64,000 bases of DNA from Crossaster papposus (lineage: Eukaryota > Echinodermata > Asteroidea > Velatida > Solasteridae), in assembly GCA_037893245.1 (NCBI GenBank), contig JBAIAA010000455.1, forward strand, positions 248,001-312,000, read 5' to 3'. Shown here piece after piece: positions 4,934 to 64,000 of the stretch (position 1 is its first letter; the number at the start of each line of letters is the position of its first letter). The notes beneath the pieces were generated by a model. The model worked only from the letters and a program-made list of their open reading frames with translations. It was not told the origin of the DNA and made no database searches. Made by a program: the position numbers and the translations under genes.

Positions 4934-5447
4934 CCAGTTAGCGCCGGGATTATTGTAACATCACCGAGCCGACGCGCTGGTTTATTTTTAACGAAATACG
5001 AGGCGGGTTCAGGCCGATAGTACCGGGAAACACACCCACGCATTTCCAACGTTGCTTGCTGCTGACAGACATTTTCGGCCTTGCACGTGGCGTGTTTATG
5101 TGTCATCCGTTTTAGTCTGGGGAAAACTTTGCATTTATTTACGTCATTCGATGCGAACTGGTTAAAACACTGCTCTACTTGTTCATAATTTCTTTGTAAT
5201 TGATTACACACCCGAAGCCAGCTTGACTAATTCTCTGACCTTACAAGTTTTCCCCAGATTCAAAACGGGTGACGCATAAACACCCTCACGAGCAAGGCCG
5301 GAAATGTCTGTTAGCAACGAGCAAGGCCAGAAATGCGTGGGTGTGCTTCCCGGTACCATCAGCTTGAACCCGCCTCGGATCGTGTTTTGTTAAAAATAAA
5401 CCAGCGCGTCGGCTCGGTGATGTTACAATAATCCCGGCGCGAACTGG
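4934..5447. mobile_element. TTAA-flanked foldback MITE, family 2
   Basis: TTAA occurs at 4930-4933 and 5448-5451. Termini are CCAGTTAGCGCCGGGATT and, reversed, CCAGTTCGCGCCGGGATT, and inverted similarity continues for about 200 bp per arm (CCGAGCCGACGCGCTGG, GGCGGGTTCA, GGGGAAAACTTG). The core of about 100 bp has no coding potential. An orphan right end of the same family sits at 34262-34280, and a similar end (AAAACTGG-TTAA) lies at 5670-5681. Confidence 0.85.
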
Positions 5448-12730: not shown

Positions 12731-13751
12731 TGATTTGATGATTTGATGATGGGATGATGGGATGATGGGATGATGGGATGATGGGATGATGGGATGATGG
12801 GATGATGGGATGATGGGATGATGGGATGATGGGATGATGGGATGATGGGATGATGGGATGATGGGATGATGGGATGATGGGATGATGGGATGATGGGATG
12901 ATGGGATGATGGGATGATGGGATGATGGGATGATGGGATGATGGGATGATGGGATGATGGGATGATGGGATGATGGGATGATGGGATGATGGGATGATGG
13001 GATGATGGGATGATGGGATGATGGGATGATGGGATGATGGGATGATGGGATGATGGGATGATGGGATGATGGGATGATGGGATGATGGGATGATGGGATG
13101 ATGGGATGATGGGATGATGGGATGATGGGATGATGGGATGATGGGATGATGGGATGATGGGATGATGGGATGATGGGATGATGGGATGATGGGATGATGG
13201 GATGATGGGATGATGGGATGATGGGATGATGGGATGATGGGATGATGGGATGATGGGATGATGGGATGATGGGATGATGGGATGATGGGATGATGGGATG
13301 ATGGGATGATGGGATGATGGGATGATGGGATGATGGGATGATGGGATGATGGGATGATGGGATGATGGGATGATGGGATGATGGGATGATGGGATGATGG
13401 GATGATGGGATGATGGGATGATGGGATGATGGGATGATGGGATGATGGGATGATGGGATGATGGGATGATGGGATGATGGGATGATGGGATGATGGGATG
13501 ATGGGATGATGGGATGATGGGATGATGGGATGATGGGATGATGGGATGATGGGATGATGGGATGATGGGATGATGGGATGATGGGATGATGGGATGATGG
13601 GATGATGGGATGATGGGATGATGGGATGATGGGATGATGGGATGATGGGATGATGGGATGATGGGATGATGGGATGATGGGATGATGGGATGATGGGATG
13701 ATGGGATGATGGGATGATGGGATGATGGGATGATGGGATGATGGGATGATG
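12731..13751. repeat. 8-bp satellite (GATGATGG)n, ~127 copies
   Basis: Essentially perfect array of GATGATGG (ATGGGATG register). The first two units are GATTTGAT variants. Because 8 is not a multiple of 3, all six frames are open or nearly so, which produces long spurious reading frames on the minus strand (HHPIIPSS periods). Confidence 0.95.
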
Positions 13752-14107
13752 AATTCCTGATTCGCTGATTCCCTGTTGAATCCCTGATTCGCTGATTCGC
13801 TGATTCCCTGTTGAATCCCTGATTCGCTGATTCGCTGATTCGCTGATTCGCTGATTCCCTGTTGAATCCCTGATTCGCTGATTCGCTGATTCGCTGATTC
13901 GCTGATTCGCTGATTCGCTGATTCCCTGTTGAATCCCTGATTCGCTGATTCGCTGATTCGCTGATTCCCTGATTCCCTGTTGAATCCCTGATTCGCTGAT
14001 TCGCTGATTCGCTGATTCGCTGATTCGCTGATTCGCTGATTCGCTGATTCGCTGATTCGCTGATTCGCTGATTCGCTGATTCGCTGATTCGCTGATTCGC
14101 TGATTCG
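13752..14107. repeat. Mixed 8-bp block GATTCGCT/GATTCCCT with TGTTGAATCCCT links
   Basis: Runs of GATTCGCT are punctuated by GATTCCCTGTTGAATCCCT, giving an irregular higher-order pattern. The run lengths between punctuation marks are the same in the copy at 17199-17554, showing that both derive from one ancestor. Confidence 0.95.
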
Positions 14108-14760
14108 CTTGATTGCCTGATTGCCTGATTGCCTGATTGCCTGATTGCCTGATTGCCTGATTGCCTGATTGCCTGATTGCCTGATTGCCTGATTGCCTGA
14201 TTGCCTGATTGCCTGATTGCCTGATTGCCTGATTGCCTGATTGCCTGATTGCCTGATTGCCTGATTGCCTGATTGCCTGATTGCCTGATTGCCTGATTGC
14301 CTGATTGCCTGATTGCCTGATTGCCTGATTGCCTGATTGCCTGATTGCCTGATTGCCTGATTGCCTGATTGCCTGATTGCCTGATTGCCTGATTGCCTGA
14401 TTGCCTGATTGCCTGATTGCCTGATTGCCTGATTGCCTGATTGCCTGATTGCCTGATTGCCTGATTGCCTGATTGCCTGATTGCCTGATTGCCTGATTGC
14501 CTGATTGCCTGATTGCCTGATTGCCTGATTGCCTGATTGCCTGATTGCCTGATTGCCTGATTGCCTGATTGCCTGATTGCCTGATTGCCTGATTGCCTGA
14601 TTGCCTGATTGCCTGATTGCCTGATTGCCTGATTGCCTGATTGCCTGATTGCCTGATTGCCTGATTGCCTGATTGCCTGATTGCCTGATTGCCTGATTGC
14701 CTGATTGCCTGATTGCCTGATTGCCTGATTGCCTGATTGCCTGATTGCCTGATTGCCTGA
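14108..14760. repeat. 8-bp satellite (GATTGCCT)n, ~81 copies
   Basis: Perfect array, ending mid-unit at CCTGA where unit 2 of the duplication begins. The corresponding array of unit 2 is about 250 copies, three times longer. Confidence 0.95.
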
Positions 14761-14840
14761 GAATAAATTAAAACGATTGTAGGCACATACATATAGAGAC
14801 TTTCTAACCTTTGTTTTTTGGTTGGTTCGAATCCCACCAG

Positions 14841-15042
14841 ATACCTTTAACGACCGGCTCTCACTCGGGGAGGAAGCGGAGTGCCAGCCGTGCCTAATGG
14901 GGATGTTCTGTGAGACGCCAGCACTGTCCTGGCCCACGGGCAACTGCGACGCTGGGTTTCTATGCCTGGCTGGCGCAGCCACATCCAGCCCTGACGAAGG
15001 CACTAATGCACCCTGTGTAGTCGGTCACTACTGCGAAAAATG
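14841..15042 (+). pseudogene. GCC-repeat gene, exon 8' (unit 2 duplicate)
   Basis: Base-for-base duplicate of 11402-11603 including the extra T before the donor (15041). If both pairs were spliced in, the protein would gain two modules twice over, but the shared phase problem affects both copies. Confidence 0.7.
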
Positions 15043-15213
15043 GTCAGTTTACGTTTCTCAATTATTCACTTGGGCTTTTTGCACGAATGAGAGAGGCAGT
15101 TTTGTTTGTACCTCTTTCAAGCGCCCTGTTGACAGGACTCACTGGATGCACGTACCACTTCGCATGCATATGGTGTGAAGTGTGCACGACTAAAGAGACT
15201 ATGAAATCTCTAT

Positions 15214-15430
15214 TAGTCCGTATGTATGTACGTAGTCCGTATGTATGTATGTAGTCCGTAATTTACGTAGTCCGTATGTACGTAGTTCATATGTGTGTAA
15301 GTAGTCTGGATTTGCGTAGTCCGTGCGTGTGTGCGTAGTCCGTGCGTGTGTGCATACTCCGTGCGTGTGTGCATACTTCGTGCGTGTGTGTATAGTCCGT
15401 GCATGTGTGTATAGTCCATGTGTTTGTTAA
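15214..15430. repeat. Minisatellite TAGTCCGT...GTGTG, unit 2 copy
   Basis: Duplicate of the array at 11775-11990 with no difference seen by eye. Confidence 0.85.
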
Positions 15431-15559
15431 ATGTGTGTCAAATGTGTTTTTCTGATGCCAACAATTTGACGAAGGTTAGAAAACGACAAAAACTAAGGAG
15501 CTGAGATTTTGTAAACCCCTTTTATTTCACCCACTTTGTCTTTTTGTGAACCCTTCCAG

Positions 15560-15817
15560 GCACCAACTCGGCCACCGCTTGCCCCCCTGGAACAATCAAC
15601 TCTGACGAGGGTGGACGATCCATGGACGACTGCGTCCCATGCGAGGCTGGTCACTTCTGTCGGGGCACGGGCCTGTCGGCACCCACGGGCATCTGCTCAG
15701 AGCGCTACTACTGTCCGAGTGACGCCGTGATTGATTCGTTTAAGCCCGCCTGCTACGAGTGCCCGGCTGGGTCCTTCTGCCCGAATGAGACGGCGACGCC
15801 GGTGGCCTGCAACCTAG
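15560..15817 (+). CDS. GCC-repeat gene, exon 9' (unit 2 duplicate)
   Basis: Duplicate of exon 9, 258 nt, phase 1 at both ends, open. Here the donor is a single CTAG|GTAGGA. Its exit phase fits exon 10 at 29506, giving a C-N-L-G-H-Y-C junction, so if the gene is expressed the following intron would span 13.7 kb of satellites and an H2A locus. Confidence 0.75.
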
Positions 15818-16160
15818 GTAGGAATTAAACCCATGTTGTAGTAATTGCAAGACTGTCGCCAGTCCGAACATGTGGCTTGCGACTCGGGTAAGAATCCTAC
15901 CAGTGTCGTAGTTGGTTGTATTCCGTGAATGTTAAGCTTTGACCAAAGCTATCAAGCTTGTTCCCTGAACGAGAATTTGTCGGCTAGCCTCATACTCATA
16001 CTCAACAGCCTGCATGCACGTACATATACACACACGCCCCTCACGTACATCCTCAAACAGAATACGGCATAGTCGAGGCGAATGATAGCCTTGACCCAAT
16101 TTAATCCGTTTATTTACATTTACGGCCAAATTCGGCCGAGCCAATTAAACACTGTAAACT

Positions 16161-17198
16161 ATGATTTGATGATGGGATGATGGGATGATGGGATGATGGG
16201 ATGATGGGATGATGGGATGATGGGATGATGGGATGATGGGATGATGGGATGATGGGATGATGGGATGATGGGATGATGGGATGATGGGATGATGGGATGA
16301 TGGGATGATGGGATGATGGGATGATGGGATGATGGGATGATGGGATGATGGGATGATGGGATGATGGGATGATGGGATGATGGGATGATGGGATGATGGG
16401 ATGATGGGATGATGGGATGATGGGATGATGGGATGATGGGATGATGGGATGATGGGATGATGGGATGATGGGATGATGGGATGATGGGATGATGGGATGA
16501 TGGGATGATGGGATGATGGGATGATGGGATGATGGGATGATGGGATGATGGGATGATGGGATGATGGGATGATGGGATGATGGGATGATGGGATGATGGG
16601 ATGATGGGATGATGGGATGATGGGATGATGGGATGATGGGATGATGGGATGATGGGATGATGGGATGATGGGATGATGGGATGATGGGATGATGGGATGA
16701 TGGGATGATGGGATGATGGGATGATGGGATGATGGGATGATGGGATGATGGGATGATGGGATGATGGGATGATGGGATGATGGGATGATGGGATGATGGG
16801 ATGATGGGATGATGGGATGATGGGATGATGGGATGATGGGATGATGGGATGATGGGATGATGGGATGATGGGATGATGGGATGATGGGATGATGGGATGA
16901 TGGGATGATGGGATGATGGGATGATGGGATGATGGGATGATGGGATGATGGGATGATGGGATGATGGGATGATGGGATGATGGGATGATGGGATGATGGG
17001 ATGATGGGATGATGGGATGATGGGATGATGGGATGATGGGATGATGGGATGATGGGATGATGGGATGATGGGATGATGGGATGATGGGATGATGGGATGA
17101 TGGGATGATGGGATGATGGGATGATGGGATGATGGGATGATGGGATGATGGGATGATGGGATGATGGGATGATGGGATGATGGGATGATGGGATGATG
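16161..17198. repeat. 8-bp satellite (GATGATGG)n, unit 2, ~129 copies
   Basis: Same array as 12731-13751, of nearly the same length, with one initial variant unit fewer. Confidence 0.95.
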
Positions 17199-17554
17199 AA
17201 TTCCTGATTCGCTGATTCCCTGTTGAATCCCTGATTCGCTGATTCGCTGATTCCCTGTTGAATCCCTGATTCGCTGATTCGCTGATTCGCTGATTCGCTG
17301 ATTCCCTGTTGAATCCCTGATTCGCTGATTCGCTGATTCGCTGATTCGCTGATTCGCTGATTCGCTGATTCCCTGTTGAATCCCTGATTCGCTGATTCGC
17401 TGATTCGCTGATTCCCTGATTCCCTGTTGAATCCCTGATTCGCTGATTCGCTGATTCGCTGATTCGCTGATTCGCTGATTCGCTGATTCGCTGATTCGCT
17501 GATTCGCTGATTCGCTGATTCGCTGATTCGCTGATTCGCTGATTCGCTGATTCG
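17199..17554. repeat. Mixed GATTCGCT/GATTCCCT block, unit 2
   Basis: Copy of 13752-14107 with the same order of run lengths and TGTTGAATCCCT links. Confidence 0.95.
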
Positions 17555-19602
17555 CTTGATTGCCTGATTGCCTGATTGCCTGATTGCCTGATTGCCTGAT
17601 TGCCTGATTGCCTGATTGCCTGATTGCCTGATTGCCTGATTGCCTGATTGCCTGATTGCCTGATTGCCTGATTGCCTGATTGCCTGATTGCCTGATTGCC
17701 TGATTGCCTGATTGCCTGATTGCCTGATTGCCTGATTGCCTGATTGCCTGATTGCCTGATTGCCTGATTGCCTGATTGCCTGATTGCCTGATTGCCTGAT
17801 TGCCTGATTGCCTGATTGCCTGATTGCCTGATTGCCTGATTGCCTGATTGCCTGATTGCCTGATTGCCTGATTGCCTGATTGCCTGATTGCCTGATTGCC
17901 TGATTGCCTGATTGCCTGATTGCCTGATTGCCTGATTGCCTGATTGCCTGATTGCCTGATTGCCTGATTGCCTGATTGCCTGATTGCCTGATTGCCTGAT
18001 TGCCTGATTGCCTGATTGCCTGATTGCCTGATTGCCTGATTGCCTGATTGCCTGATTGCCTGATTGCCTGATTGCCTGATTGCCTGATTGCCTGATTGCC
18101 TGATTGCCTGATTGCCTGATTGCCTGATTGCCTGATTGCCTGATTGCCTGATTGCCTGATTGCCTGATTGCCTGATTGCCTGATTGCCTGATTGCCTGAT
18201 TGCCTGATTGCCTGATTGCCTGATTGCCTGATTGCCTGATTGCCTGATTGCCTGATTGCCTGATTGCCTGATTGCCTGATTGCCTGATTGCCTGATTGCC
18301 TGATTGCCTGATTGCCTGATTGCCTGATTGCCTGATTGCCTGATTGCCTGATTGCCTGATTGCCTGATTGCCTGATTGCCTGATTGCCTGATTGCCTGAT
18401 TGCCTGATTGCCTGATTGCCTGATTGCCTGATTGCCTGATTGCCTGATTGCCTGATTGCCTGATTGCCTGATTGCCTGATTGCCTGATTGCCTGATTGCC
18501 TGATTGCCTGATTGCCTGATTGCCTGATTGCCTGATTGCCTGATTGCCTGATTGCCTGATTGCCTGATTGCCTGATTGCCTGATTGCCTGATTGCCTGAT
18601 TGCCTGATTGCCTGATTGCCTGATTGCCTGATTGCCTGATTGCCTGATTGCCTGATTGCCTGATTGCCTGATTGCCTGATTGCCTGATTGCCTGATTGCC
18701 TGATTGCCTGATTGCCTGATTGCCTGATTGCCTGATTGCCTGATTGCCTGATTGCCTGATTGCCTGATTGCCTGATTGCCTGATTGCCTGATTGCCTGAT
18801 TGCCTGATTGCCTGATTGCCTGATTGCCTGATTGCCTGATTGCCTGATTGCCTGATTGCCTGATTGCCTGATTGCCTGATTGCCTGATTGCCTGATTGCC
18901 TGATTGCCTGATTGCCTGATTGCCTGATTGCCTGATTGCCTGATTGCCTGATTGCCTGATTGCCTGATTGCCTGATTGCCTGATTGCCTGATTGCCTGAT
19001 TGCCTGATTGCCTGATTGCCTGATTGCCTGATTGCCTGATTGCCTGATTGCCTGATTGCCTGATTGCCTGATTGCCTGATTGCCTGATTGCCTGATTGCC
19101 TGATTGCCTGATTGCCTGATTGCCTGATTGCCTGATTGCCTGATTGCCTGATTGCCTGATTGCCTGATTGCCTGATTGCCTGATTGCCTGATTGCCTGAT
19201 TGCCTGATTGCCTGATTGCCTGATTGCCTGATTGCCTGATTGCCTGATTGCCTGATTGCCTGATTGCCTGATTGCCTGATTGCCTGATTGCCTGATTGCC
19301 TGATTGCCTGATTGCCTGATTGCCTGATTGCCTGATTGCCTGATTGCCTGATTGCCTGATTGCCTGATTGCCTGATTGCCTGATTGCCTGATTGCCTGAT
19401 TGCCTGATTGCCTGATTGCCTGATTGCCTGATTGCCTGATTGCCTGATTGCCTGATTGCCTGATTGCCTGATTGCCTGATTGCCTGATTGCCTGATTGCC
19501 TGATTGCCTGATTGCCTGATTGCCTGATTGCCTGATTGCCTGATTGCCTGATTGCCTGATTCCCTGATTCCCTGATTCCCTGATTCCCTGATTCCCTGAT
19601 TC
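17555..19602. repeat. 8-bp satellite (GATTGCCT)n, ~250 copies, ending in GATTCCCT
   Basis: About 2.0 kb of perfect GATTGCCT units followed by five or six GATTCCCT units from 19558. The switch to GATTCCCT immediately precedes the 17-bp satellite. Confidence 0.95.
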
Positions 19603-21602
19603 CCCGACAAGTCCCCCCTCGCGACAAGTCCCCCCTCGCGACAAGTCCCCCCTCGCGACAAGTCCCCCCTCGCGACAAGTCCCCCCTCGCGACAAGTCCC
19701 CCCTCGCGACAAGTCCCCCCTCGCGACAAGTCCCCCCTCGCGACAAGTCCCCCCTCGCGACAAGTCCCCCCTCGCGACAAGTCCCCCCTCGCGACAAGTC
19801 CCCCCTCGCGACAAGTCCCCCCTCGCGACAAGTCCCCCCTCGCGACAAGTCCCCCCTCGCGACAAGTCCCCCCTCGCGACAAGTCCCCCCTCGCGACAAG
19901 TCCCCCCTCGCGACAAGTCCCCCCTCGCGACAAGTCCCCCCTCGCGACAAGTCCCCCCTCGCGACAAGTCCCCCCTCGCGACAAGTCCCCCCTCGCGACA
20001 AGTCCCCCCTCGCGACAAGTCCCCCCTCGCGACAAGTCCCCCCTCGCGACAAGTCCCCCCTCGCGACAAGTCCCCCCTCGCGACAAGTCCCCCCTCGCGA
20101 CAAGTCCCCCCTCGCGACAAGTCCCCCCTCGCGACAAGTCCCCCCTCGCGACAAGTCCCCCCTCGCGACAAGTCCCCCCTCGCGACAAGTCCCCCCTCGC
20201 GACAAGTCCCCCCTCGCGACAAGTCCCCCCTCGCGACAAGTCCCCCCTCGCGACAAGTCCCCCCTCGCGACAAGTCCCCCCTCGCGACAAGTCCCCCCTC
20301 GCGACAAGTCCCCCCTCGCGACAAGTCCCCCCTCGCGACAAGTCCCCCCTCGCGACAAGTCCCCCCTCGCGACAAGTCCCCCCTCGCGACAAGTCCCCCC
20401 TCGCGACAAGTTCCCCCTCGCGACAAGTCCCCCCTCGCGACAAGTCCCCCCTCGCGACAAGTCCCCCCTCGCGACAAGTCCCCCCTCGCGACAAGTCCCC
20501 CCTCGCGACAAGTCCCCCCTCGCGACAAGTCCCCCCTCGCGACAAGTCCCCCCTCGCGACAAGTCCCCCCTCGCGACAAGTCCCCCCTCGCGACAAGTCC
20601 CCCCTCGCGACAAGTCCCCCCTCGCGACAAGTCCCCCCTCGCGACAAGTCCCCCCTCGCGACAAGTCCCCCCTCGCGACAAGTCCCCCCTCGCGACAAGT
20701 CCCCCCTCGCGACAAGTCCCCCCTCGCGACAAGTCCCCCCTCGCGACAAGTCCCCCCTCGCGACAAGTCCCCCCTCGCGACAAGTCCCCCCTCGCGACAA
20801 GTCCCCCCTCGCGACAAGTCCCCCCTCGCGACAAGTCCCCCCTCGCGACAAGTCCCCCCTCGCGACAAGTCCCCCCTCGCGACAAGTCCCCCCTCGCGAC
20901 AAGTCCCCCCTCGCGACAAGTCCCCCCTCGCGACAAGTCCCCCCTCGCGACAAGTCCCCCCTCGCGACAAGTCCCCCCTCGCGACAAGTCCCCCCTCGCG
21001 ACAAGTCCCCCCTCGCGACAAGTCCCCCCTCGCGACAAGTCCCCCCTCGCGACAAGTCCCCCCTCGCGACAAGTCCCCCCTCGCGACAAGTCCCCCCTCG
21101 CGACAAGTCCCCCCTCGCGACAAGTCCCCCCTCGCGACAAGTCCCCCCTCGCGACAAGTCCCCCCTCGCGACAAGTCCCCCCTCGCGACAAGTCCCCCCT
21201 CGCGACAAGTCCCCCCTCGCGACAAGTCCCCCCTCGCGACAAGTCCCCCCTCGCGACAAGTCCCCCCTCGCGACAAGTCCCCCCTCGCGACAAGTCCCCC
21301 CTCGCGACAAGTCCCCCCTCGCGACAAGTCCCCCCTCGCGACAAGTCCCCCCTCGCGACAAGTCCCCCCTCGCGACAAGTCCCCCCTCGCGACAAGTCCC
21401 CCCTCGCGACAAGTCCCCCCTCGCGACAAGTCCCCCCTCGCGACAAGTCCCCCCTCGCGACAAGTCCCCCCTCGCGACAAGTCCCCCCTCGCGACAAGTC
21501 CCCCCTCGCGACAAGTCCCCCCTCGCGACAAGTCCCCCCTCGCGACAAGTCCCCCCTCGCGACAAGTCCCCCCTCGCGACAAGTCCCCCCTCGCGACAAG
21601 TC
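19603..21602. repeat. 17-bp satellite GACAAGTCCCCCCTCGC, ~117 copies
   Basis: Almost perfect array; one C-to-T variant is seen at about 20412. Minus-strand translation repeats a 17-residue period in every frame (three units make 51 nt), giving spurious open frames over 1800 codons. The same 17-mer recurs at 22376-22522 and 23552-23940, and a decayed form at 24247-24277. Confidence 0.97.
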
Positions 21603-22375
21603 AATTTTTAATTGCATCAATTTGTATTCGCATCAATTTGTATTAGCTTTTAATAGTAGACTTTTTCGCATTTTATTTTTTTCCGCATTTTTCTTTTTTT
21701 CGCATTTTTGTTTTTTTCACATTTTTTTTTTTTCCGCATTTTTGTCATTTTGGTCTTTTTCGCATTTTTTTTTTTCCGCATTTTTGTCTTTTTCGCCATT
21801 TTTGTCTTTTTCGCATTTAATTTTTTTCAGCATTTTTGTCTTTTTCGCATTTTATTTTTTTCCGCATTTTTGTTTTTTTCGCATTTTTTTTTTTTTCGCA
21901 TTTTTTTTTTTTCCGCATTTTTGTCATTTTGGTCTTTTTCGCATTTTTTTTTTTCCGCATTTTTGTCTTTTTCGCCATTTTTGTCTTTTTCGCATTATTT
22001 TTTTTCAGCATTTTTGTCTTTTTCGCATTTTATTTTTTTCCGCATTTTTGTTTTTTTCGCATTTTTTTTTTTTTCGCATTTAATTTTTTTCCGCATTTTT
22101 TTTTTTTTCGCATTTTGTCTTTTTCGCATTTTGGTCTTTTTCGCATTTTTTCTTTCCGAATTTTTGTCTTTTTCGCATTTTATTTTTTTCCGCATTGTTG
22201 TCTTTTTCGCATTTTTGTTTTTTTCTCATTTTATTTTTTTCCGCATTTTATGTTTTTTCGCATTTTTGTCTTTTTCGCATTTTGGTCTTTTTCGCATTTT
22301 TTTTTTCCGCATTTTTGTCTTTTTCGCATTTTATTTTTTTCCGCATTGTTGTCTTTTTCGCATTTTATTTATTTC
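21603..22375. repeat. T-rich satellite, block A, mostly 17-bp periods ending CGCA
   Basis: The block starts with ATTGCATCAATTTGTATTCG-type units and TTTTAATAGTAGAC, then runs as T-rich words each ending in CGCA. Most CGCA-to-CGCA distances are 17 bp, with 26-bp and 18-bp variants. The strand asymmetry is extreme (T on plus, A on minus). Confidence 0.9.
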
Positions 22376-22522
22376 TCGCGACAAGTCCCCCCTCGCGACA
22401 AGTCCCCCCTCGCGACAAGTCCCCCCTCGCGACAAGTCCCCCCTCGCGACAAGTCCCCCCTCGCGACAAGTCCCCCCTCGCGACAAGTCCCCCCTCGCGA
22501 CAAGTCCCCCCTCGCGACAAGT
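22376..22522. repeat. 17-bp GC-rich satellite, second block
   Basis: Eight to nine units of GACAAGTCCCCCCTCGC, ending GACAAGTCAATTTG exactly as the first block ends at 21602. This shows that block plus following T-rich segment was copied as one unit. Confidence 0.95.
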
Positions 22523-23551
22523 CAATTTGTAATTGCATCAATTTGTATTCGCATCAATTTGTATTAGCTTTTAATAGTAGACTTTTTCGCATTTTATTTT
22601 TTTCAGCATTTTTCTTTTTTTCGCATTTTTGTTTTTTTCGCATTTTTTTTTTTTCCGCATTTTTGTCATTTTGGTCTTTTTCGCATTTTTTTTTTTCCGC
22701 ATTTTTGTCTTTTTCGCCATTTTTGTCTTTTTTGCATTTAATTTTTTTCAGCATTTTTGTCTTTTTCGCATTTTATTTTTTTCCGCATTTTTGTTTTTTT
22801 CGCATTTTTTTTTTTTTCGCATTTTTTTTTTTTCCGCATTTTTGTCATTTTGGTCTTTTTCGCATTTTTTTTTTTCCGCATTTTTGTCTTTTTCGCCATT
22901 TTTGTCTTTTTCGCATTATTTTTTTTCAGCATTTTTGTCTTTTTCGCATTTTATTTTTTTCCGCATTTTTGTTTTTTTCGCATTTTTTTTTTTTTCGCAT
23001 TTAATTTTTTTCCGCATTTTTTTTTTTTTCGCATTTTGTCTTTTTCGCATTTTGGTCTTTTTCGCATTTTTTTTTTCCGCATTTTTGTCTTTTTCGCATT
23101 TTATTTTTTTCCGCATTGTTGTCTTTTTCGCATTTTTGTTTTTTTCTCATTTTATTTTTTTCCGCATTTTATGTTTTTTCGCATTTTTGTCTTTTTCGCA
23201 TTTTGGTCTTTTTCGCATTTTTTTTTTCCGCATTTTTGTCTTTTTCGCATTTTATTTTTTTCCGCATTGTTGTCTTTTTCGCATTTTATTTTTTTTTGCA
23301 TTTTTGTCTTTTTCGCATTTTGGTCTTTTTCGCATTTTATTTTTTTCCGCATTTTTTGTCTTTTTCGCATTTTATTTTTTTCCGAATTTTTGTCTTTTTC
23401 GCATTTAATTTTTTTCCGCATTTTTGTCTTTTTCGCATTTTATTTTTTTCCGCATTTTTGTCTTTTTTGCATTTTATTTTTTTCCGCATTTTTGTCTTTT
23501 TTGCATTTTATTTTTTTCCACATTTTTGTCTTTTTCGCATTCTTTTTTTTT
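22523..23551. repeat. T-rich satellite, block B
   Basis: Repeats block A in the same order of variants from its start (GCATCAATTTGTATT, AATAGTAGAC, then CGCA words) and then extends by about 280 bp. It ends in TTTTTTCAAGTC where the third GC-rich block begins. Confidence 0.9.
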
Positions 23552-23940
23552 CAAGTCCCCCCTCGCGACAATTCCCCCCTCGCGACAATTCCCCCCTCGC
23601 GACAATTCCCCCCTCGCGACAAGTCCCCCCTCGCGACAAGTCCCCCCTCGCGACAAGTCCTCCCTCGCGACAAGTCCTCCCTCGCGACAAGTCCCCCCTC
23701 GCGACAAGTCCCCCCTCGCGACAAGTCCCCCCTCGCGACAAGTCCCCCCTCGCGACAAGTCCCCCCTCGCGACAAGTCCCCCCTCGCGACAAGTCCCCCC
23801 TCGCGACAAGTCCCCCCTCGCGACAAGTCCCCCCTCGCGACAAGTCCCCCCTCGCGACAAGTCCCCCCTCGCGACAAGTCCCCCCTCGCGACAAGTCCCC
23901 CCTCGCGACAAGTCCCCCCTCGCGACAAGTCCCCCCTCGC
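23552..23940. repeat. 17-bp GC-rich satellite, third block with variants
   Basis: About 23 units. The first few carry GACAATTCCCCCC, and two carry GACAAGTCCTCCC, so this edge is more diverged than the main array. Confidence 0.95.
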
Positions 23941-24060
23941 ATTCGCATCAATTTGTATTCGCATCAATTTGTATTCGCATTTAATAGCAGACTTTTTCGC
24001 ATTTTTGTCTTTTTCGCATTTTTGTCTTTTTCGCATTTTATTTTTTTTTTAATTAGAATT
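23941..24060. repeat. T-rich satellite, block C (short)
   Basis: GCATCAATTTGTATTC units, then AATAGCAGAC and three CGCA T-rich words, a short third repeat of the higher-order pattern. Confidence 0.85.
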
Positions 24061-35499: not shown

Positions 35500-37416
35500 G
35501 TAAATCTAGTGAATATAAGGACAAATTATGTCATTTTGATACAGTTTGTATTTTAGTACTTGAGTCTGAGGTGAATCAGAATGATATTGGTTTTTGTTAT
35601 AGTCCGTGGGCCAGAGGGGGCTACCGTGCACCCCCCCTATGATCCTACTTCTTGGGTGTCATCTTGTTCATTGGGATCCATAATATCAGAAAAAAGATGT
35701 TCCCAAGAAAAAAACTCATTTGGACACTGTTTTTTTGCTCCTTATTTGAAGATATGTAAAAATTTCAGTTTTTCGTGTTTTGAACACTTTCTTAGGGTTC
35801 GTGAATTATGTGCTTACATTTTACCCTGTTTCTCAGCAGATATAACTCTAATCTCCACCAAATCAATACACAATCTTCATAAATCATACAACAATGGGTA
35901 GACAAAATTATTTTAATATGTTTTATTGTCTTCTATTATTAATGACATCATAAATTTGCATATAATTAAATATGCACATTTTCATCTCAAAATCTGTCAA
36001 AATCACCTGGAAGTTGTATTTTGTCTGCTATAATCATGAAATAAGTTTGCTAACCCCCTAATTTCGTGTAAAATTATTCATTGATATGTTATCTGATGTT
36101 TCCTGCAAAAAAAATAGTATCAGTCAACTCGTAATTAACCCCCTCCCCCGCATTACGGTTACTACATTCTGTATATTTAATGCACATTCAATCACAGTTT
36201 CTGTTTATAAGAACAAAAGCTCGACAAGCAGTATTTTAATGACTGTTAGGGCTAGCCTGTTAACATTAAACTAAATCAAATCAAATTCCAGTTCTCCTGA
36301 GAATACACATAACATATGCACACTATTTGAAATGCAATGTACTTTCTTTTCCCTTTATGATATCATGAAGGGAAGTACTCTGTACATCTTTGTTATTGTG
36401 AAGTAAAATGATATATAAAATGACAGTGATCTTCTTTCACTGTCCGTAGGATGATTTCTATTCCTATTATGTTTATAAATTCAATACAGTATATTACCGC
36501 ATACAATATGGCTTTTTGATAGTTATAAACATGTATCAGTCTGAAAGGGGGGCTCAGACCAAGCCAACTTATTCAACTGTTGGTCATTAATCGCATTATA
36601 TGCTATAACACAGGGTTGATGATTATACAAACGAATGAATGAACGTATACGGGGTGCAGTTTCATGAATTTCAACTGACATGACACACTGAGCAAAACCA
36701 ATCAGTGAATGAATCTGATTATAATCATGGTATATAACAAAGACTGATATTTAAATGTTTAACAACACCTTAAATGCACTACGTTTCTATATTTCTATTC
36801 ATACTTTTTCAGAAACACAGGTACATTTTTTCACTAGCACAAAATATTATGTAACTGCAACAGTGACAGAATGTTTTCCTCAAGTCCTTCATTCAAGGAT
36901 AAACACATAAATGGCTTATCAAACTCAAATTTAAGGATGACATAATGAGTATTGTTGAAACTTTGCATTCTTTGAAAATACATTTTAACGATGTGACCAC
37001 TTTGGTGTCGACAATCTTTCTAGTTAATATTATGCAGTTATCTGTTTATCGTACATAATGTACATTTATTATTTCAAGACGGAAGAATCAAGGGAAAGAA
37101 AATTAGATATCACAAGAAATCATTACTGAAATTCCTTATACAGCATTGAGTGTCCTTCAGTTATAAGTGATAGAACATATATATATTTTTAATCAACTCT
37201 TGTTTACATGAATGGAGTAAAGGTGTAAGGAAGTAAACACCTACACGTGACAAAACTAACAGCACGTGATCTTTCTGTGTTGAACCAGATTTATATTGCT
37301 AATATTTACTTAAAATTTGATGGTTTGTCATTTTCTATGGGGCATGTTATTAACATTAATTATCACAAAAGCAAAACATGTCATACTGTACTACTGAAAC
37401 AAATAATGAAGCCTTT

Positions 37417-38307
37417 TCAGACTTCATCTTCGCTATCTGCGTCTTTGTCCGAGTCATAGTACTGGACATCATGATCTGAATCGTAGTCGTCATCACTTGA
37501 GTCATCGTCTCCCATACAGTCAAGAACATCTACCAACCTTGGGGGCAGAATGTCTCTCGTTGACCATAGTGGTTCTAATTTGTCTAAATTCTTTGTCCAA
37601 CCATGACCATCTGTAGGTGGTGGAACGATGGGTTTAGGCTCATGAGCCCTCTTCCATATCGCCACCTGGTAGTTCACTCTCCTGATGTGTTGTTGAAGAC
37701 TGTCCTTGCATGGAGGAAATAAAGACAAGTCTACGTGGACCGACTTGCTGATTTTCTCTCCATCACTTTTACACTTTTTCTTCATCAGAGCAAATCTAGC
37801 CTCATCTACATCAGTAAACCTTGGTTTCCCATACAGGGCACATGTAAATTCCTCCAGGTTGGACATCAACTCCTCTGGTACAGTCCACGAATCACCAAGT
37901 CCTGCAAGAGGTTTGACAAATTTGTTGCGTTGCTGCAACAGTTTGATAGGCTTGACTTTGCCAATTCCTTTAAAGGCGCTTGTGGAGTCACAGCCTGAGA
38001 AAGCATGTAGTCCAAGGAGTGCTGTGCAATATTCAGGGGAGGACTGCTTGGCAAAATGAGTGACATCAATGAGCCGCTGCTTGCTTCCTCTCTCTGTGTG
38101 GAAGAGTAATGTGATGTCTGGAGTGAGATGCGCGTAATGAAGCAATATGAAAAATATATCGGTGTCTGGGCTTTTGATCTGCACATTAGCCATGTCATGC
38201 TCACTCCAGACATCCAGAATAACTTGAATAAGTTGTTTCTTATTCTCATCATTCGTTAGGAACTGCTTCCAGTCAGGTGGTCTTTTGGTTTTGCCTCCTG
38301 TAATCAT
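37417..38307 (-). pseudogene. FEN1/XPG-like (PIN-fold) nuclease, left-arm copy, N-truncated
   Basis: A 296-codon open frame runs on the minus strand. It shows PPDWKQFLTNDENKK, WSEHDMA, then IKSPDTDIFFILLHYAHL (the acidic D-x-D core), LGLHAFSGCDSTSAFKGIGK (similar to the GCDYC-x-GIKGIG region of FEN1/XPG nucleases), and an acidic tail ending SEDEV. The segment between HDMA and the SPDTD core, present in the right copy (about 59 residues), is deleted, and the N-terminus encoded in the spacer is outside this arm. The family is widespread in marine invertebrates, often transposon-linked. Nuclease activity is inferred from motifs only. Confidence 0.75.
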
Positions 38308-38549
38308 CCTCTTCTCTGCACACCCACGCCGTGTCCGGCAAGGGCTTCTGCGGTTGAGGGCCAGGGAATATCTTTAGACTCTTCAAATGCACACAACTTG
38401 ATCTACGAGAAATCATGAAATATTCTTTGATCCTGTTCCCTACTCAATTGGAACATCAGACAACTTCTTTGCTAAGACAGATAAAGCTAAGGGCCTACAC
38501 TGTATCTTCTGAAGGATGTAGAGAACTCGCAACCTCCACCCACTGACAA

Positions 38550-39558
38550 GACCTTGGTAGTGGAAGATGGTAATGCTGTTTTCTACTACCTAAAAGAGAT
38601 GCCTGCAAACTTCCACGATATTTGCATCAAAATTCACAATGTAGTGTCATCCAAATGCGATGTCATCTTCAGCACAGACATGTACAAGCCAGACTCTGTG
38701 AAGTCAAGTGAACGGACGGACACGGCGTGGGTGTACAGAGAAGAGGATAATTACAGGAGGCAAAACCAAAAGACCACCTGACTGGAAGCAGTTCCTAACG
38801 AATGATGAGAATAAGAAACAACTTATTCAAGTTATTCTGGATGTCTGGAGTGAGCATGACATGGCTAAGAGGCTGTATGGGAAAAAGATGATATTCATCA
38901 AAGGAGAAGCCCAACTGCTCACTTCTCAGAATGGGAGAGAGACACTGCGTTCTGAGATTCCATCTTTCAACTCAACCCAAGAAGTAACAGATTCACGCGT
39001 GATCCTCTACTGCCAATACGATAAGGAGCAAGGCTATGATCATGTGCAGATCAAAAGCCCAGACACCGATATATTTTTCATATTGCTTCATTACGCGCAT
39101 CTCACTCCAGACATCACTCTTCCACACAGGGAGAGGAAACAAGCAGCGGCTCATTGATGTCACTCATTTTGCCAAGCAGTCCTCCCCTGAATATTGCACA
39201 GCACTCCTTGGACTACATGCTTTCTCAGGCTGTGGTCCACGTAGACTTGTCTTTATTTCCTCCATGCAAGGACAGTCTTCAACAACACATCAGGAGAGTG
39301 AACTACCAGGTGGCGATATGGAAGAGGGCTCATGAGCCTAAACCCATCGTTCCACCACCAACAGATGGTCATGGTTGGACAAAGAATTTAGACAAATTAG
39401 AACCACTATGGTCAACGAGAGACATTCTGCCCCCAAGGTTGGTAGATGTTCTTGACTGTATGGGAGACGATGACTCAAGTGATGACGACTACGATTCAGA
39501 TCATGATGTCCAGTACTATGACTCGGACCAAGACGCAGATAGCGAAGATGAAGTCTGA
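38550..39558 (+). pseudogene. FEN1/XPG-like nuclease, spacer plus right-arm copy, internally deleted
   Basis: The spacer encodes an N-terminal part (VVEDGNAVFYYLKEMPANFH, VIFSTDMYKPDSVKSSER) in the frame from 38554. A frameshift near 38716-38760 passes into TEKRIITGGKTKRPPDWKQF (frame 38708-39157). This keeps the KRLYGKKMIFIKGEAQLL segment missing on the left, and the SPDTD core. After HAFSGC the nuclease I-region and about 80 residues are deleted, and the remainder (VHVDLSLFPPCKDSLQQH to SEDEV) continues in frame 39154-39558. It is therefore inactive as read, and its losses complement those of the left copy. Confidence 0.75.
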
Positions 39559-41264
39559 AAAGGCTTCATTATTTGTTTCAGTAGTACAGTATGACATGTT
39601 TTGCTTTTGTGATAATTAATGTTAATAACATGCCCCATAGAAAATGACAAACCATCAAATTTTAAGTAAATATTAGCAATATAAATCTGGTTCATCACTT
39701 ATAACTGAAGGACACTCAATGCTGTATAAGGAATTTCAGTAATGATTTCTTGTGATATCTAATTTTCTTTCCCTTGATTCTTCCGTCTTGAAATAATAAA
39801 TGTACATTATGTACGATAAACAGATAACTGCATAAGATTAACTAGAAAGATTGTCGACACCAAAGTGGTCACATCGTTAAAATGTATTTTCAAAGAATGC
39901 AAAGTTTCAACAATACTCATTATGTCATCCTTAAATTTGAGTTTGATAAGCCATTTATGTGTTTATCCTTGGATGAAGGACTTGAGGAAAACATTCTGTC
40001 ACTGTTGCAGTTACATAATATTTTGTGCTAGTGAAAAAATGTACCTGTGTTTCTGAAAAAGTATGAATAGAAATATAGAAACGTAGTGCATTTAAGGTGT
40101 TGTTAAACATTTAAATATCAGTCTTTGTTATATACCATGATTATAATCAGATTCATTCACTGATTGGTTTTGCTCAGTGTGTCATGTCAGTTGAAATTCA
40201 TGAAACTGCACCCCGTATACGTTCGTTCATTCGTTTGTATAATCATCAACCCTGTGTTATAGCATATAATGCGATTAATGACCAACAGTTGAATAAGTTG
40301 GCTTGGTCTGAGCCCCCCTTTCAGACTGATACATGTTTATAACTATCAAAAAACCATATTGTATGCGGTAATATACTGTATTGAATTTATAAACATAATA
40401 GGGATAGAAATCATCCTACGGACAGTGAAAGAAGATCACCGTCATTTTAGATATCATTTTACTTCACAATAACAAAGATGTACAGAGTACTTCCCTTCAT
40501 GATATCATAAAGGGAAAAGAAAGTACATTGCATTTCAAATAGTGTGCATATGTTATGTGTATTCTCAGGAGAACTGGAATTTGATTTGATTTAATTTGAT
40601 GTTAACAGGCTAGCCCTAACAGTCATTAAAATACTGCTTGTCGAGCTTTTGTTCTTATAAACAGGAACTTTGATTGAATGTGCATTAAATATACAGAATG
40701 TAGTAACCGTAATGCGGGGGAGGGGGTTAATTACGAGTTGACTGATACTATTTTTTTGCAGGAAACATCAGATAACATATCAATGAATAATTTTACACGA
40801 AATTAGGGGGTTAGCAAACTTATTTCATGATTATAGCAGACAAAATACAACTTCCAGGTGATTTTGACAGATTTTGAGATGAAAATTTGCATATTTAATT
40901 ATATGCAAATTTATGACGTCATTAATAATAGAAGACAATAAAACATATTAAAATAATTTTGTCTACCCATTGTTGTATGATTTATGAAGATTGTGTATTA
41001 ATTTGGTGGAGATTAGAGTTATATCTGCTGAGAAACAGAGTAAAATGTAAGCACATAATTCACGAACCCTAAGAAAGTGTTCAAAACACGAAAAACTGAA
41101 ATTTTTACATATCTTCAAATAAGGAGCAAATAAACAGTGTCCAAATGAGTTTTTTTTCTTGGGAACATCTTTTTTCTGATATTATGGATCCCAATGAACA
41201 AGATGACACCCAAGAAGTAGGATCATAGGGGGGGTGCACGGTAGCCCCCTCTGGCCCACGGACT

Positions 41265-41780
41265 GCGAAGACGGGTTTGTGCGCGATCGCCGGTTTTGAA
41301 CGGTTCAAAAATTTTTCCACGCACAACGTGCGCGATTATACGCAGTTTATGCGCAGTTTGTACGTAGTTTGGACGTGGAAGGTGCGTGATATGTCCGTGT
41401 TCTGTCAGTGTTCCGTCAGTGCTTGTGCGTCAGGAACTGGCTCCTAGCACGCACATCACTGACGAATCACTTACAGAACACGCACATATCACTTACAAAA
41501 CACGCACAATCCACGTATGTTCCACTTACAATCACTTACCAAAATTATTATTGTGCGTGGAATGTTCTTTGTCAGTGATTGTAAGTGATACATGCGCAGT
41601 TTATACGCGATTCATCGGTGATTCTGACCACGCACAACCCCAGAAAATGACCAATTTCTCCACGAACAATCACGCACAAACCAATTTTATGCGTGATTTA
41701 TGCGTGATTTATGCGTGATTTATGCGTGATTTATGCGTGATTTATGCGTCATTGGCAATGGGACTGGGCCTTTACGAATA
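41265..41780. mobile_element. MITE-like segment built of GTGCGTG / TGCGTGAT motifs
   Basis: Dense GTGCGTG, TTGTGCGTG, CACGCACA and ACTTACA words occur in both orientations. It ends in five TGCGTGATTTA units (about 41689-41745) and TGGCAATGGGACTGGGCC. The right terminus, read inward as GGCCCAGTCCCATTGCC, resembles the ends of the MITEs at 51795 and 59869. The left terminus is not visible and may have been replaced by the palindrome. Confidence 0.55.
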
Positions 41781-44315: not shown

Positions 44316-46490
44316 CGCAGCTTGAGGATGGCCATCTTCAAATGCCCTTGCCTTTCCGCTTTCGTCATGGCTTGCCGGTTAACAAAGCTCGCAAGCATTC
44401 CTTCGCCTAGGCCATCTCAAGCGCAAGTTAGCTAGAGACTCTAAGTATCGTGATGACTACGTTAAGTTTGTTCAGGATGTCATCGAGCATGGTGATGCAG
44501 AGGAAGCCCAAGCCATGTAGTACATCCCTCGTCACGGTGTGTACCACCCTAGAAAGCCAAAGGATTCGAGTTGTGTTCGATTGCTCAAGTCAGCACAGAG
44601 GCACTTCCTATAATGACCATCTTCTGAGTGCCCCCGATCTGACGAATGCCCTAGTAGGAGTACTGAGCCGCTTCAGGAGTCATCCAGTATAGCTATAGTT
44701 TGCGACATCGAAAGAATGTTCCATCAGTTCATTGTCAGACAAGAAGACCGAGATTTCTCACACAGGAGCCAACAGAGTACAGGATGAAGGCACACCTATT
44801 TGGAGCTTCATCATCTCCTGGCGGGGGTGGGGGGGGGGGGGGGGGGGGGGGGGGGTGGCAACTACAGTCTCAAGTTTTTGGCCAAGAAATATGAGAAGGA
44901 GTTTCCCTCTGCAGCCCTGTTTATCAATCACCATTTTTACGTAGACGATGGATTGATCAGTATAGAAACCAACGATGAAGCAATTCAGCTCATTCAAGAG
45001 ACTAGGGATCTGTGTAGCAAAGGCGGCATACATCTACACAGGTTCATCTCCAACAGTCGAGGTGTTGGAATCTGTCCCTGCCAAGAAACGCGCTGCATCT
45101 GTTAAGGAAGTTAACCTCAATAAAGATAACCTGCATATGTCCTCCACGCTTGGGATTCAATGGGATGTGGAGAAGGATGAATTCTTCTTCAGAACTGAGA
45201 CCAAGGAGGCAGCGTTGACCCGTAGGGGAATTCTGTCTATGGTTGCATCGGTTTATGACCCCTTGGGATTTCTGGCTCCATAGGTAAAGTATTGCTGCAG
45301 CACATGTGTCGCAACGGAAGTGGACGGGATGATCCTTTGCCTAAAGAGTTATGACCACGGTGGGAGAAGTGGATGGCGGACCTTCCCAACATTGCAGCAA
45401 TTCAGATTCCACGCTGCGTGAAGCCGAGTGGTCTTAGGAAAGTTAAGTCTACACAGCTTTGCCACTTCTCAGACGGCAGCACTTTGGGTTATGGTCGATG
45501 CTCCTACCTCAGAATTCAGGATCAGTAAGACAGGATATACTATGCACTCCTGATGGGCAAGTCTCGAGTGGCCCCGACTGAGGTCACAACAATCCCCCGC
45601 CTTAAGTTAGCTGCAGCTGTGGTGTCGGTGAAAATCAGCAAGGTCTTGAAGAGCTCCAGCTCTCAAATGTGGAAGAAATTGTGGACCGATTCTCAGGTAG
45701 TCTATAGGGTATATCAACAACGAGGCGCGACGTTTTCATACATTTGTGGCCAACCGTGTACAAATAATCAGAGACAGCACAATCATATCCTGATCAGTGG
45801 TTCTACGTCGAGTCTGAATTCAACCCCACTGATCATGCTTCAAGAGGGCTCACCGCATCGACTCCCCTCCAGTCTACCTGATACACGAGTCCAGAATTTT
45901 AGATCCCTTCACTGATGACTTAGGGAGTCTGCGTGTAGGTGGTCGCCTGAGGAATTCGTCACTCTTGTTTTTTGTCAAGCACCCGGCAATACTAGCCAAG
46001 GACAGCCACATGTCCAGACTCATCGCTAATCACTACCATCATAAAGTCCACCACCAAGACCGTGGGATCGGAATGAAATCAGAGCGAACGGGTTTTGGAT
46101 CATCAGCGGTGGAAGGATGGTTTCGGATATCATTCGTAAATGTGTGGTCTGTATAGGAGAAACCGGCGACCCACTCAAGAACAGAAGATGGCAGATCTCC
46201 CTGAGGATCGTGTGGAATCATCTCCGCCATTCTTATTCTGTGCATGGACTGTTTCGGTCCCTTTATCACCAAGCAATGCCGCAAGGAGTTCAAGAGATAC
46301 GGCCTATACTGTTCACCTGTTTGTGCTCCAGAGCGGTTCACGTAGAGTTACTGGATGACCTCTCCACTGATGCCTTCATCAATGGACTGCGATGTTTTAT
46401 CGCCATACGAGGCAAGGTTCGGCAAATCAGGTCGGACCAAGGCAATAACTTTGTTGGAGCAAAAAGTGAACTAGTGGACAGGCCCTGCGT
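44316..46490 (+). pseudogene. Decayed BEL/Pao retroelement pol region
   Basis: Plus-strand fragments in the order of a BEL/Pao polyprotein: a segment before the RT (near 44330-44500, LPFRFRHG and a Lys-rich helix), RT fragments (44560-45110), the diagnostic RRGILSMVASVYDPLGFLAP region at 45220-45282, RNase-H-like part (45430-45720), HHQ-type integrase zinc-binding part (45950-46170) and integrase core with IRSDQGNNFVGA near 46430-46465. Multiple stops and frameshifts, a 27-nt G run (44829-44855) inside the RT, and no LTRs recognised. It breaks off at a tandem-repeat array. Confidence 0.85.
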
Positions 46491-46519
46491 CTTGAATTTA
46501 AAACTAACATCGTTAAGAT

Positions 46520-46862
46520 AATAATATAATAATAATAATTGGGGAGGCTAATCATCCTTACTCGCAGCTGGTGTGCTGAATTGCGAAGGACGCGGCTACA
46601 ACGTGGTCGAGTCGCTGGCACGTAAAGGCGCCTATGGCAGCCGGCCACATCGACTCATTATGACTACGGAGCACAGCCTGAGATCGAAAGTGTTTAATTT
46701 TTCAGGAGGGAGGAAAACCGGATGACCTGGAAAAAACCCTCGTGGCACAGGAGAGAACCAACGCACAACTCTACTCACATTATGGTCCGGCCGGGAATCG
46801 AACCCGGGCCACATTGGTGAAAGGCAAGCGCTTTACACACAAGCCACCCATGCCACCCTATA
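46520..46862 (-). mobile_element. tRNA-derived SINE with (AAT)n tail
   Basis: Read on the minus strand it begins TAGGGTGGCATGGGTGGCTT, with GGCCCGGGTTCGATTCCCGG as B box, then GGTTCTCTCCTGTGCCACGA, TCCGGTTTTCCTCCC and a tail of ATT repeats at 46520-46540. The TCCGGTTTTCCTCCC core is a motif I know from several marine-animal SINE families. Confidence 0.8.
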
Positions 46863-63185: not shown

Positions 63186-64000
63186 AAGGTACAGCAGTGT
63201 GGTCTATGATCAAACCAAATCTCATTTGAATGTGAACAGCAGACCTGAATAGCATTACGACCGAACGAAATCTCATTTGAATGTGAACAGCAGCAACCTG
63301 AACAGCATTACGACCAAACGAAATCTCATTTGAATGTGAACAGCAGACCTGAATAGCATTACGAACGAACGAAATCTCATTTGAATGTGAACAGCAGCAA
63401 CCTGAACAGCATTACGACCAAACGAAATCTCATTTGAATGTGAACAGCAGACCTGAACAGCATTACGACCGAACGAAATCTCATTTGAATGTGAACAGCA
63501 GACCTGAACAGCATTTCGACCGAACGAAATCTCATTTGAATGTGAACAGCAGACCTGAACAGCATTACGACCAAACGAAATCTCATTTAAATGTGAACAG
63601 CAGACCTGTAAAGCCTTACGACCCAACGAAATCTCATTTAAATGTGAACAGCAGACCTGAACAGCATTACGACCGAACGAAATCTCATTTGAATGTGAAC
63701 AGCAGACCTGAACAGCATTACGACCAAACGAAATCTCATTTAAATGTGAACAGCAGACCTGAACAGCATTACGACCGAACGAAATCTCATTTGAATGTGA
63801 ACAGCAGAACTGAACAGCATTACGACCAAACGAAATCTCATTTAAATGTGAACAGCAGACCTGAACAGCATTACGACCGAACGAAATTTCATTTGAATGT
63901 GAACAGCAGAACTGAACAGCATTACGACCGAACGAAATCTCATTTGAATGTGAACAGCAGACCTGAACAGCATTACGACCGAACGAAATCTCATTTGAAT
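63186..64000. repeat. 51-bp minisatellite, ~16 copies, running off the window
   Basis: Unit: GACCGAACGAAATCTCATTT, GAATGTGAACAGCAGACC, TGAACAGCATTAC. Early copies alternate 51 bp with 54 bp (an extra CAG in GCAGCAACC). Because 51 is 17 codons, the minus strand stays open with the period FGRNAVQVCCSHSNEIS over 63273-63626. Substitutions scatter without codon bias, so coding is unlikely but not excluded. Confidence 0.93.

Follow-up and report, generated by a model that had tools for sequence, protein, structure and literature searches.

The 64,000-nt stretch of DNA analysed here (the window), positions 248,001 to 312,000 of contig JBAIAA010000455.1 of Crossaster papposus, carries at 35601-41264 a palindromic element in which two arms enclose a spacer of 379 nt and whose termini read AGTCC...GGACT. 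The arms are 92-100% complementary by block, most blocks reaching 98-100%, and differ from each other by 22 substitutions, two 1-nt indels, one 5-nt indel and three large indels (Table 1). Each arm holds part of one FEN1/EXO1-like nuclease gene. In the left copy the motifs SPDTD and GCDSTS are present and the QEETD block is missing; in the right copy the block is present and reads QEVTD, SPDTD is retained and GCDSTS is missing, and the motifs DGNA and FSTDMY occur in the spacer only. Arm alignment and open reading frames (ORFs) thus confirmed the two complementary broken copies of a FEN1-like gene proposed in a preliminary description of this DNA, and a motif check bore out its account of what each copy lacks and of an N-terminus that exists once, in the spacer. 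The gap of about 59 residues it had placed in the left copy is real and measures 174 nt, or 58 codons. Its further statement that all parts of the gene exist within the element did not hold: the transposase part of the parental gene is absent from the palindrome, and the only copy of the QEETD block in the element has lost the block's invariant Glu. No full protein can be made from the pieces of the gene that the window copy holds. Of the 40 typed loci (C20 and C879, which have large insertions, were left out of this typing), 25 share the window's indel genotype, and all 25 of these fetched copies read QEVTD; they represent few independent insertions.

When the predicted structure of the nuclease was compared with known structures, it matched the EXO1/FEN1/XPG fold, as the preliminary description had anticipated. 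The best Foldseek matches were XRN2 (E 1.8e-5) and T5 FEN (E 7.7e-5), with TM-scores on the query of at most 0.40, and FEN1 followed at E 1.2e-3. Enzymes of the FEN1 family act on flaps and branches. Against PDB sequences, the window protein matched a 5'-3' exonuclease family protein weakly (E 0.027 and 0.28) and the full-length profile gave a best E of 0.43. Pfam returned a single match on the window ORFs, below threshold, and a literature search for the motif GCDSTSAFKG found no paper.

Full-length relatives are proteins of about 1,300-1,600 aa with a C-terminal nuclease and, N-ward of it, a region weakly like DUF6589; Pfam matches on these relatives were sub-threshold only. D467 and E471, checked for a DDD/E transposase core, are invariant in A3. 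The part joined to the nuclease is probably a DUF6589-like DDE transposase. We searched the window's own assembly (1.02 Gb, 1841 contigs) with a full-length protein query and obtained 48 matches with 35 of 1529 candidates scored; the two best have reading frames open over 1616 and 1581 aa, stop-free across the match. With 48 matches to the full-length query in the genome, we rejected the nuclease as an ordinary single-copy host gene. The nearest non-palindromic relative, C472:54403-62950, begins with the same terminus as the palindrome and contains one gene in one direction, in four pieces in shifted frames, with the transposase fused to the FEN1-like nuclease. Toward its 3' end it matches the palindrome arm at about 98%, and its ends are inverted over 488 bp at 90.6% identity. 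L010 and L049 are further non-palindromic members; the ends of each share about 420-520 bp, and the opposite end of L010 and of C472 diverges from the arm beyond about 420-510 bp. On these lengths we rejected long natural terminal inverted repeats (TIRs) in the autonomous form. The preliminary description had proposed to test whether full copies are bounded by the same long inverted repeats; in C472 the inverted ends measure 488 bp. The centre of L010 contains an ORF resembling a Penelope-like reverse transcriptase, with a YRDD motif that we take to be a sign of that class; tblastn of the relatives against this centre gave a best E of about 0.004 among the matches listed, which is unconvincing. 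Scans of viral and prokaryotic contigs yielded no confirmed relative, a result that such DNA makes weakly informative. One long relative, P0250, is filed under the name of a bacterial metagenome-assembled genome, Candidatus Thiodiazotropha endolucinida, and is probably host-animal DNA in a symbiont assembly.

The origin of the palindrome could be mapped on C472, with positions counted from 54403. The left arm follows C472 in inverted orientation, inward as far as 5450; there follow 58 nt in the same orientation from the upstream coding stretch 2955-2898 (98.3%), past which the sequence switches to the forward strand at 5155 and continues to the same 3' end. The two overlaps at the switches, CCG and GCAC, are each short enough to have arisen by chance alone. 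The same junction with the same insert is present in the window copy, L045, L048 and L053, and so at least these copies stem from one event; no such sequence could be found in L037, L038, L019 or L020. The palindrome consists of the 3' half of a parent-type element and an inverted copy of that half, joined via two microhomologies and the 58-nt insert, so that each of its ends corresponds to the parental 3' end. The arrangement may be the product of template switching or of foldback while the DNA was replicated or a gap repaired.

The genome search for the terminus that had been proposed for this DNA was run and revealed recurrent paired termini. With up to 2 mismatches, the terminus gave 407 + 238 matches, compared with 50 + 30 for a reversed control, and 34 of the 48 convergent exact-terminus pairs among the matches listed lie 5,658-5,675 bp apart. 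We examined 40 both-ended copies, comprising 39 of these 48 pairs (the window included) and one further pair, and they fall on 11 flank pairs. When the element is read as T-AGTCC...GGACT-A, a perfect 3-bp target duplication is present in 7 of the 11. Palindromic copies occupy four of these seven sites, namely the main insertion site (site A), the L019/L020 site, L038 and L048; the other three hold the non-palindromic L010 and L049 and a lopsided deletion form, L044. A 2-bp TA duplication was considered and rejected, because L009 is at odds with it and the 3-bp reading holds for 7 of the 11 pairs. The target duplications together with the many copies identify the element as a DNA transposon and not an assembly fold-back.

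Twenty-four of the 40 copies reside at site A, and the 21 of them without large insertions or deletions are on average 10.4 substitutions apart (range 0-18) across about 6.26 kb. A single contig can hold several copies, repeated at about 100-290 kb; those fetched mostly agree in their flanks, a pattern suggestive of large and recent segmental duplications. Such recurrence was seen on C455, C750, C812, C156, C186, C233 and C390, and on C173 for the L019/L020 site; C455 and C750 have a similar size series in different orientation and with different flanks. Because most copies share site A, differ by few substitutions and recur on the same contigs, the multiplication of the main 5.66-kb form appears to be due mostly to segmental duplication of a single insertion site. 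The window copy, L033, L034, L035 and L043 each have one site-A flank and one foreign flank, and L026 has the window's foreign flank only. Both flanks of L045 differ, with no visible duplication, and it keeps the window's indel set; the window-type form has therefore been at a second place. The palindrome probably moved in trans, its ends presumably being used by the transposase of related full-length copies.

To what extent the arms exchange sequence was examined at 2,387 sites polarised with C472, L010 and L049 as outgroups; columns were excluded if the outgroups disagreed or if letters were present in fewer than 6 arms, and L019_R was left out as misaligned. Derived changes present in both arms of one element only numbered four in L048, six in L037, two in L038 and two in L020, while one-arm derived changes amounted to 3-20 per arm. 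No both-arm derived substitution is specific to the window copy or L045. The changes that these two elements share comprise five in the left arms only, six in the right arms only (two of the six in a stretch missing from the left arms), one in all four arms and one crossed change, and since they are mostly arm-specific, the arms of both elements have largely stayed apart. In L048 the 248-nt deletion affects both arms, and its edges coincide with those in the window's right arm. Since the window, L045 and L048 have one junction in common, the pattern in L048 is most simply read as homogenisation of an already formed palindrome, although exchange between elements could also account for it. Arm-to-arm conversion, which the preliminary description saw as a way to regenerate an intact gene, is supported in L048, where it would have spread a deletion. 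Eight sites (132, 161, 301, 380, 600, 911, 1293 and 2491) are shared between elements in a way that is explained neither by a simple tree nor by straightforward conversion within one element. Overall, the arms would diverge through mutation and deletion and at times be homogenised.

The nuclease of Academ and AcademX elements is of the XPG/FEN1 type. According to PMC10045372, which speaks simply of a nuclease, AcademX duplications are 3-4 bp and AcademH duplications 9-10 bp long, and the lineages differ by nuclease and helicase. Our relatives resemble AcademX as described there in encoding the nuclease along with the transposase, and the 3-bp duplications at 7 of 11 flank pairs lie inside the reported 3-4 bp; the window copy differs in being a palindromic derivative without transposase. 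In Mu killer of maize, both TIRs derive from one parental end and two partial copies of the transposase gene meet as an inverted duplication (PMC3440606). The palindrome shares with it two ends from the same parental end, as the arms match the C472 3' end, and partial transposase-gene copies in inverted duplication. However, Mu killer belongs to the Mutator superfamily and is one locus with silencing shown, whereas the present element is animal, Academ-like, multicopy and found at several sites. Galileo, of the P superfamily, is foldback-like with 7-bp duplications, and according to PMC4168063 the end of the transposase ORF is recruited into the TIRs and inserts are thought to pass between TIRs. 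Both traits are likenesses; Galileo differs in its 7-bp duplications and its transposase, and with 3-bp duplications the present element does not qualify as Galileo. Here, moreover, the arms make up almost the entire element, and its junction has been mapped. A weak literature search, which did not cover subscription journals and was mostly judged from titles, found no paper on palindromic Academ derivatives, and a search combining Academ, XPG and transposon gave no paper at all.

Taken together, the window element is very probably a non-autonomous palindromic DNA transposon derived from an Academ-type, AcademX-like element. It is a recurring broken palindromic offshoot of a cut-and-paste animal transposon, not a self-contained new system. 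Several observations weigh against this assignment. The name AcademX-like comes from the nuclease and the duplication length, with the named Academ families compared by description only. The similarity of the relatives to DUF6589 reaches a best E of 7e-4, below the Pfam cut-off, and a transposase fold is absent from the structure-search lists, which nuclease matches fill. C472 is degraded, with its four shifted frames, the loss of its 3'-most 30 bp and an internal deletion, and no intact member of exactly the C472/palindrome family was seen in the genome searches made. Four of the 11 flank pairs, those of the window and L045 included, have no duplication, so that the target duplications sought are found at other copies and not at the window's own; the T...A register was picked after the flanks had been seen, and the copies were drawn from the exact-terminus matches listed and are biased to exact termini.

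An assembly fold-back, named in the preliminary description as a refutation, or a genomic segment duplicated in inverted orientation by chance would account for the palindrome as a shape and for the lack of a target duplication in the window copy. This is extremely improbable, because the ends are sharp, other copies have 3-bp duplications, one and the same junction recurs where the flanks differ, and the arms carry different indels. Very improbable, too, is the self-linked system suggested in that description, in which the nuclease would act on the hairpin of its own element and be regenerated by arm exchange. The FEN1-family fold and the exchange inferred in L048 speak for it; it is contradicted by the missing transposase part, the altered Glu in all 25 fetched copies of the window's indel genotype, the lack of both-arm substitutions specific to the window or L045, and the place of the nuclease within a larger gene in relatives. 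A further question is whether palindromes arose several times, with the both-arm changes in L037, L038 and L020 reflecting separate births and not conversion. Separate origins are possible for these three, which lack the junction sequence, as does L019; as a general account this is rather unlikely, since one junction and insert are common to the window, L045, L048 and L053, and it fails for L048.

The non-autonomous Academ-type transposon might also have a regulatory effect. By analogy with Mu killer, hairpin RNA across the palindrome could feed small RNAs directed against full-length relatives, a layout-based proposal (PMC3440606) that also draws on the complementarity of the arms. We consider it unlikely, as the origin of the palindrome alone also explains the complementarity, and for Mu killer itself the same paper offers antisense transcripts as an alternative to a long hairpin. 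Quite unlikely is the fuller version, a mobile multicopy animal counterpart of Mu killer that would move on the transposase of its relatives and whose conversion-kept arms would yield RNA silencing them. Should the arms be transcribed, one could test in an animal whether an inverted duplication of a transposase can shut down its own family, as the Mu killer idea holds. One genome shows a near-complete relative, non-palindromic members, the junction and several placed copies, and so the birth, mobilisation and arm homogenisation of a palindromic transposon become readable and testable.

Table 1. Features of the palindromic element and its flanks (window positions).
Feature	Positions	Strand	Remarks
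Whole palindromic element	35601..41264	.	First base maybe T at 35600, per target-duplication register of other copies
Left arm, 2,737 nt	35601..38337	-	Inverted copy of parent's 3' half
Right arm, 2,548 nt	38717..41264	+	Parent's 3' half, collinear with spacer
Parental TIR, left copy	35601..36023	.	About 423 bp common to both ends of non-palindromic L010
Parental TIR, right copy	40842..41264	.	Based on L010 ends and C472 488-bp inverted ends
Single-copy spacer	38338..38716	+	DGNA and FSTDMY part of nuclease
Junction insert, 58 nt	38335..38392	-	98.3% to upstream C472 coding stretch, inverted
Junction 1 overlap, CCG	38335..38337	.	3 nt
Junction 2 overlap, GCAC	38389..38392	.	4 nt
Left nuclease fragment	37417..38307	-	296-aa ORF without QEETD block (58 codons)
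Right nuclease fragment, N-ward part	38702..39157	+	With QEVTD and SPDTD
Right nuclease fragment, C-terminal part	39040..39558	+	Other frame after 5-nt and 248-nt losses
Left arm only, 110 nt	37171..37280	-	Arm alignment
Left arm only, 248 nt	37741..37988	-	GCDSTSAF region; arm alignment
Right arm only, 174 nt	38869..39042	+	In frame, 58 codons; arm alignment
Left flank	35571..35600	.	Identical to one side of site A
Right flank, gcgaagac...	41265..41294	.	Not site A; common to 5 other fetched copies

Beyond the element, the right flank at 41265-41760 is rich in repeats, with an array of the 11-bp unit TTTATGCGTGA and inverted repeats, and its first bases are common to several copies. An ORF at 46045-46521 has a sub-threshold match to an integrase core (PF00665, E 4e-5) and is perhaps a retroelement remnant. 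Long, very regular satellites lie within 12737-24039, with two arrays each of the octamers GATGATGG and CCTGATTG and an array of the 17-mer CGACAAGTCCCCCCTCG with related 17-mers, which give long spurious ORFs. At 63213-64000, a 51-bp tandem array extends up to the window end and leaves frames open on both strands.

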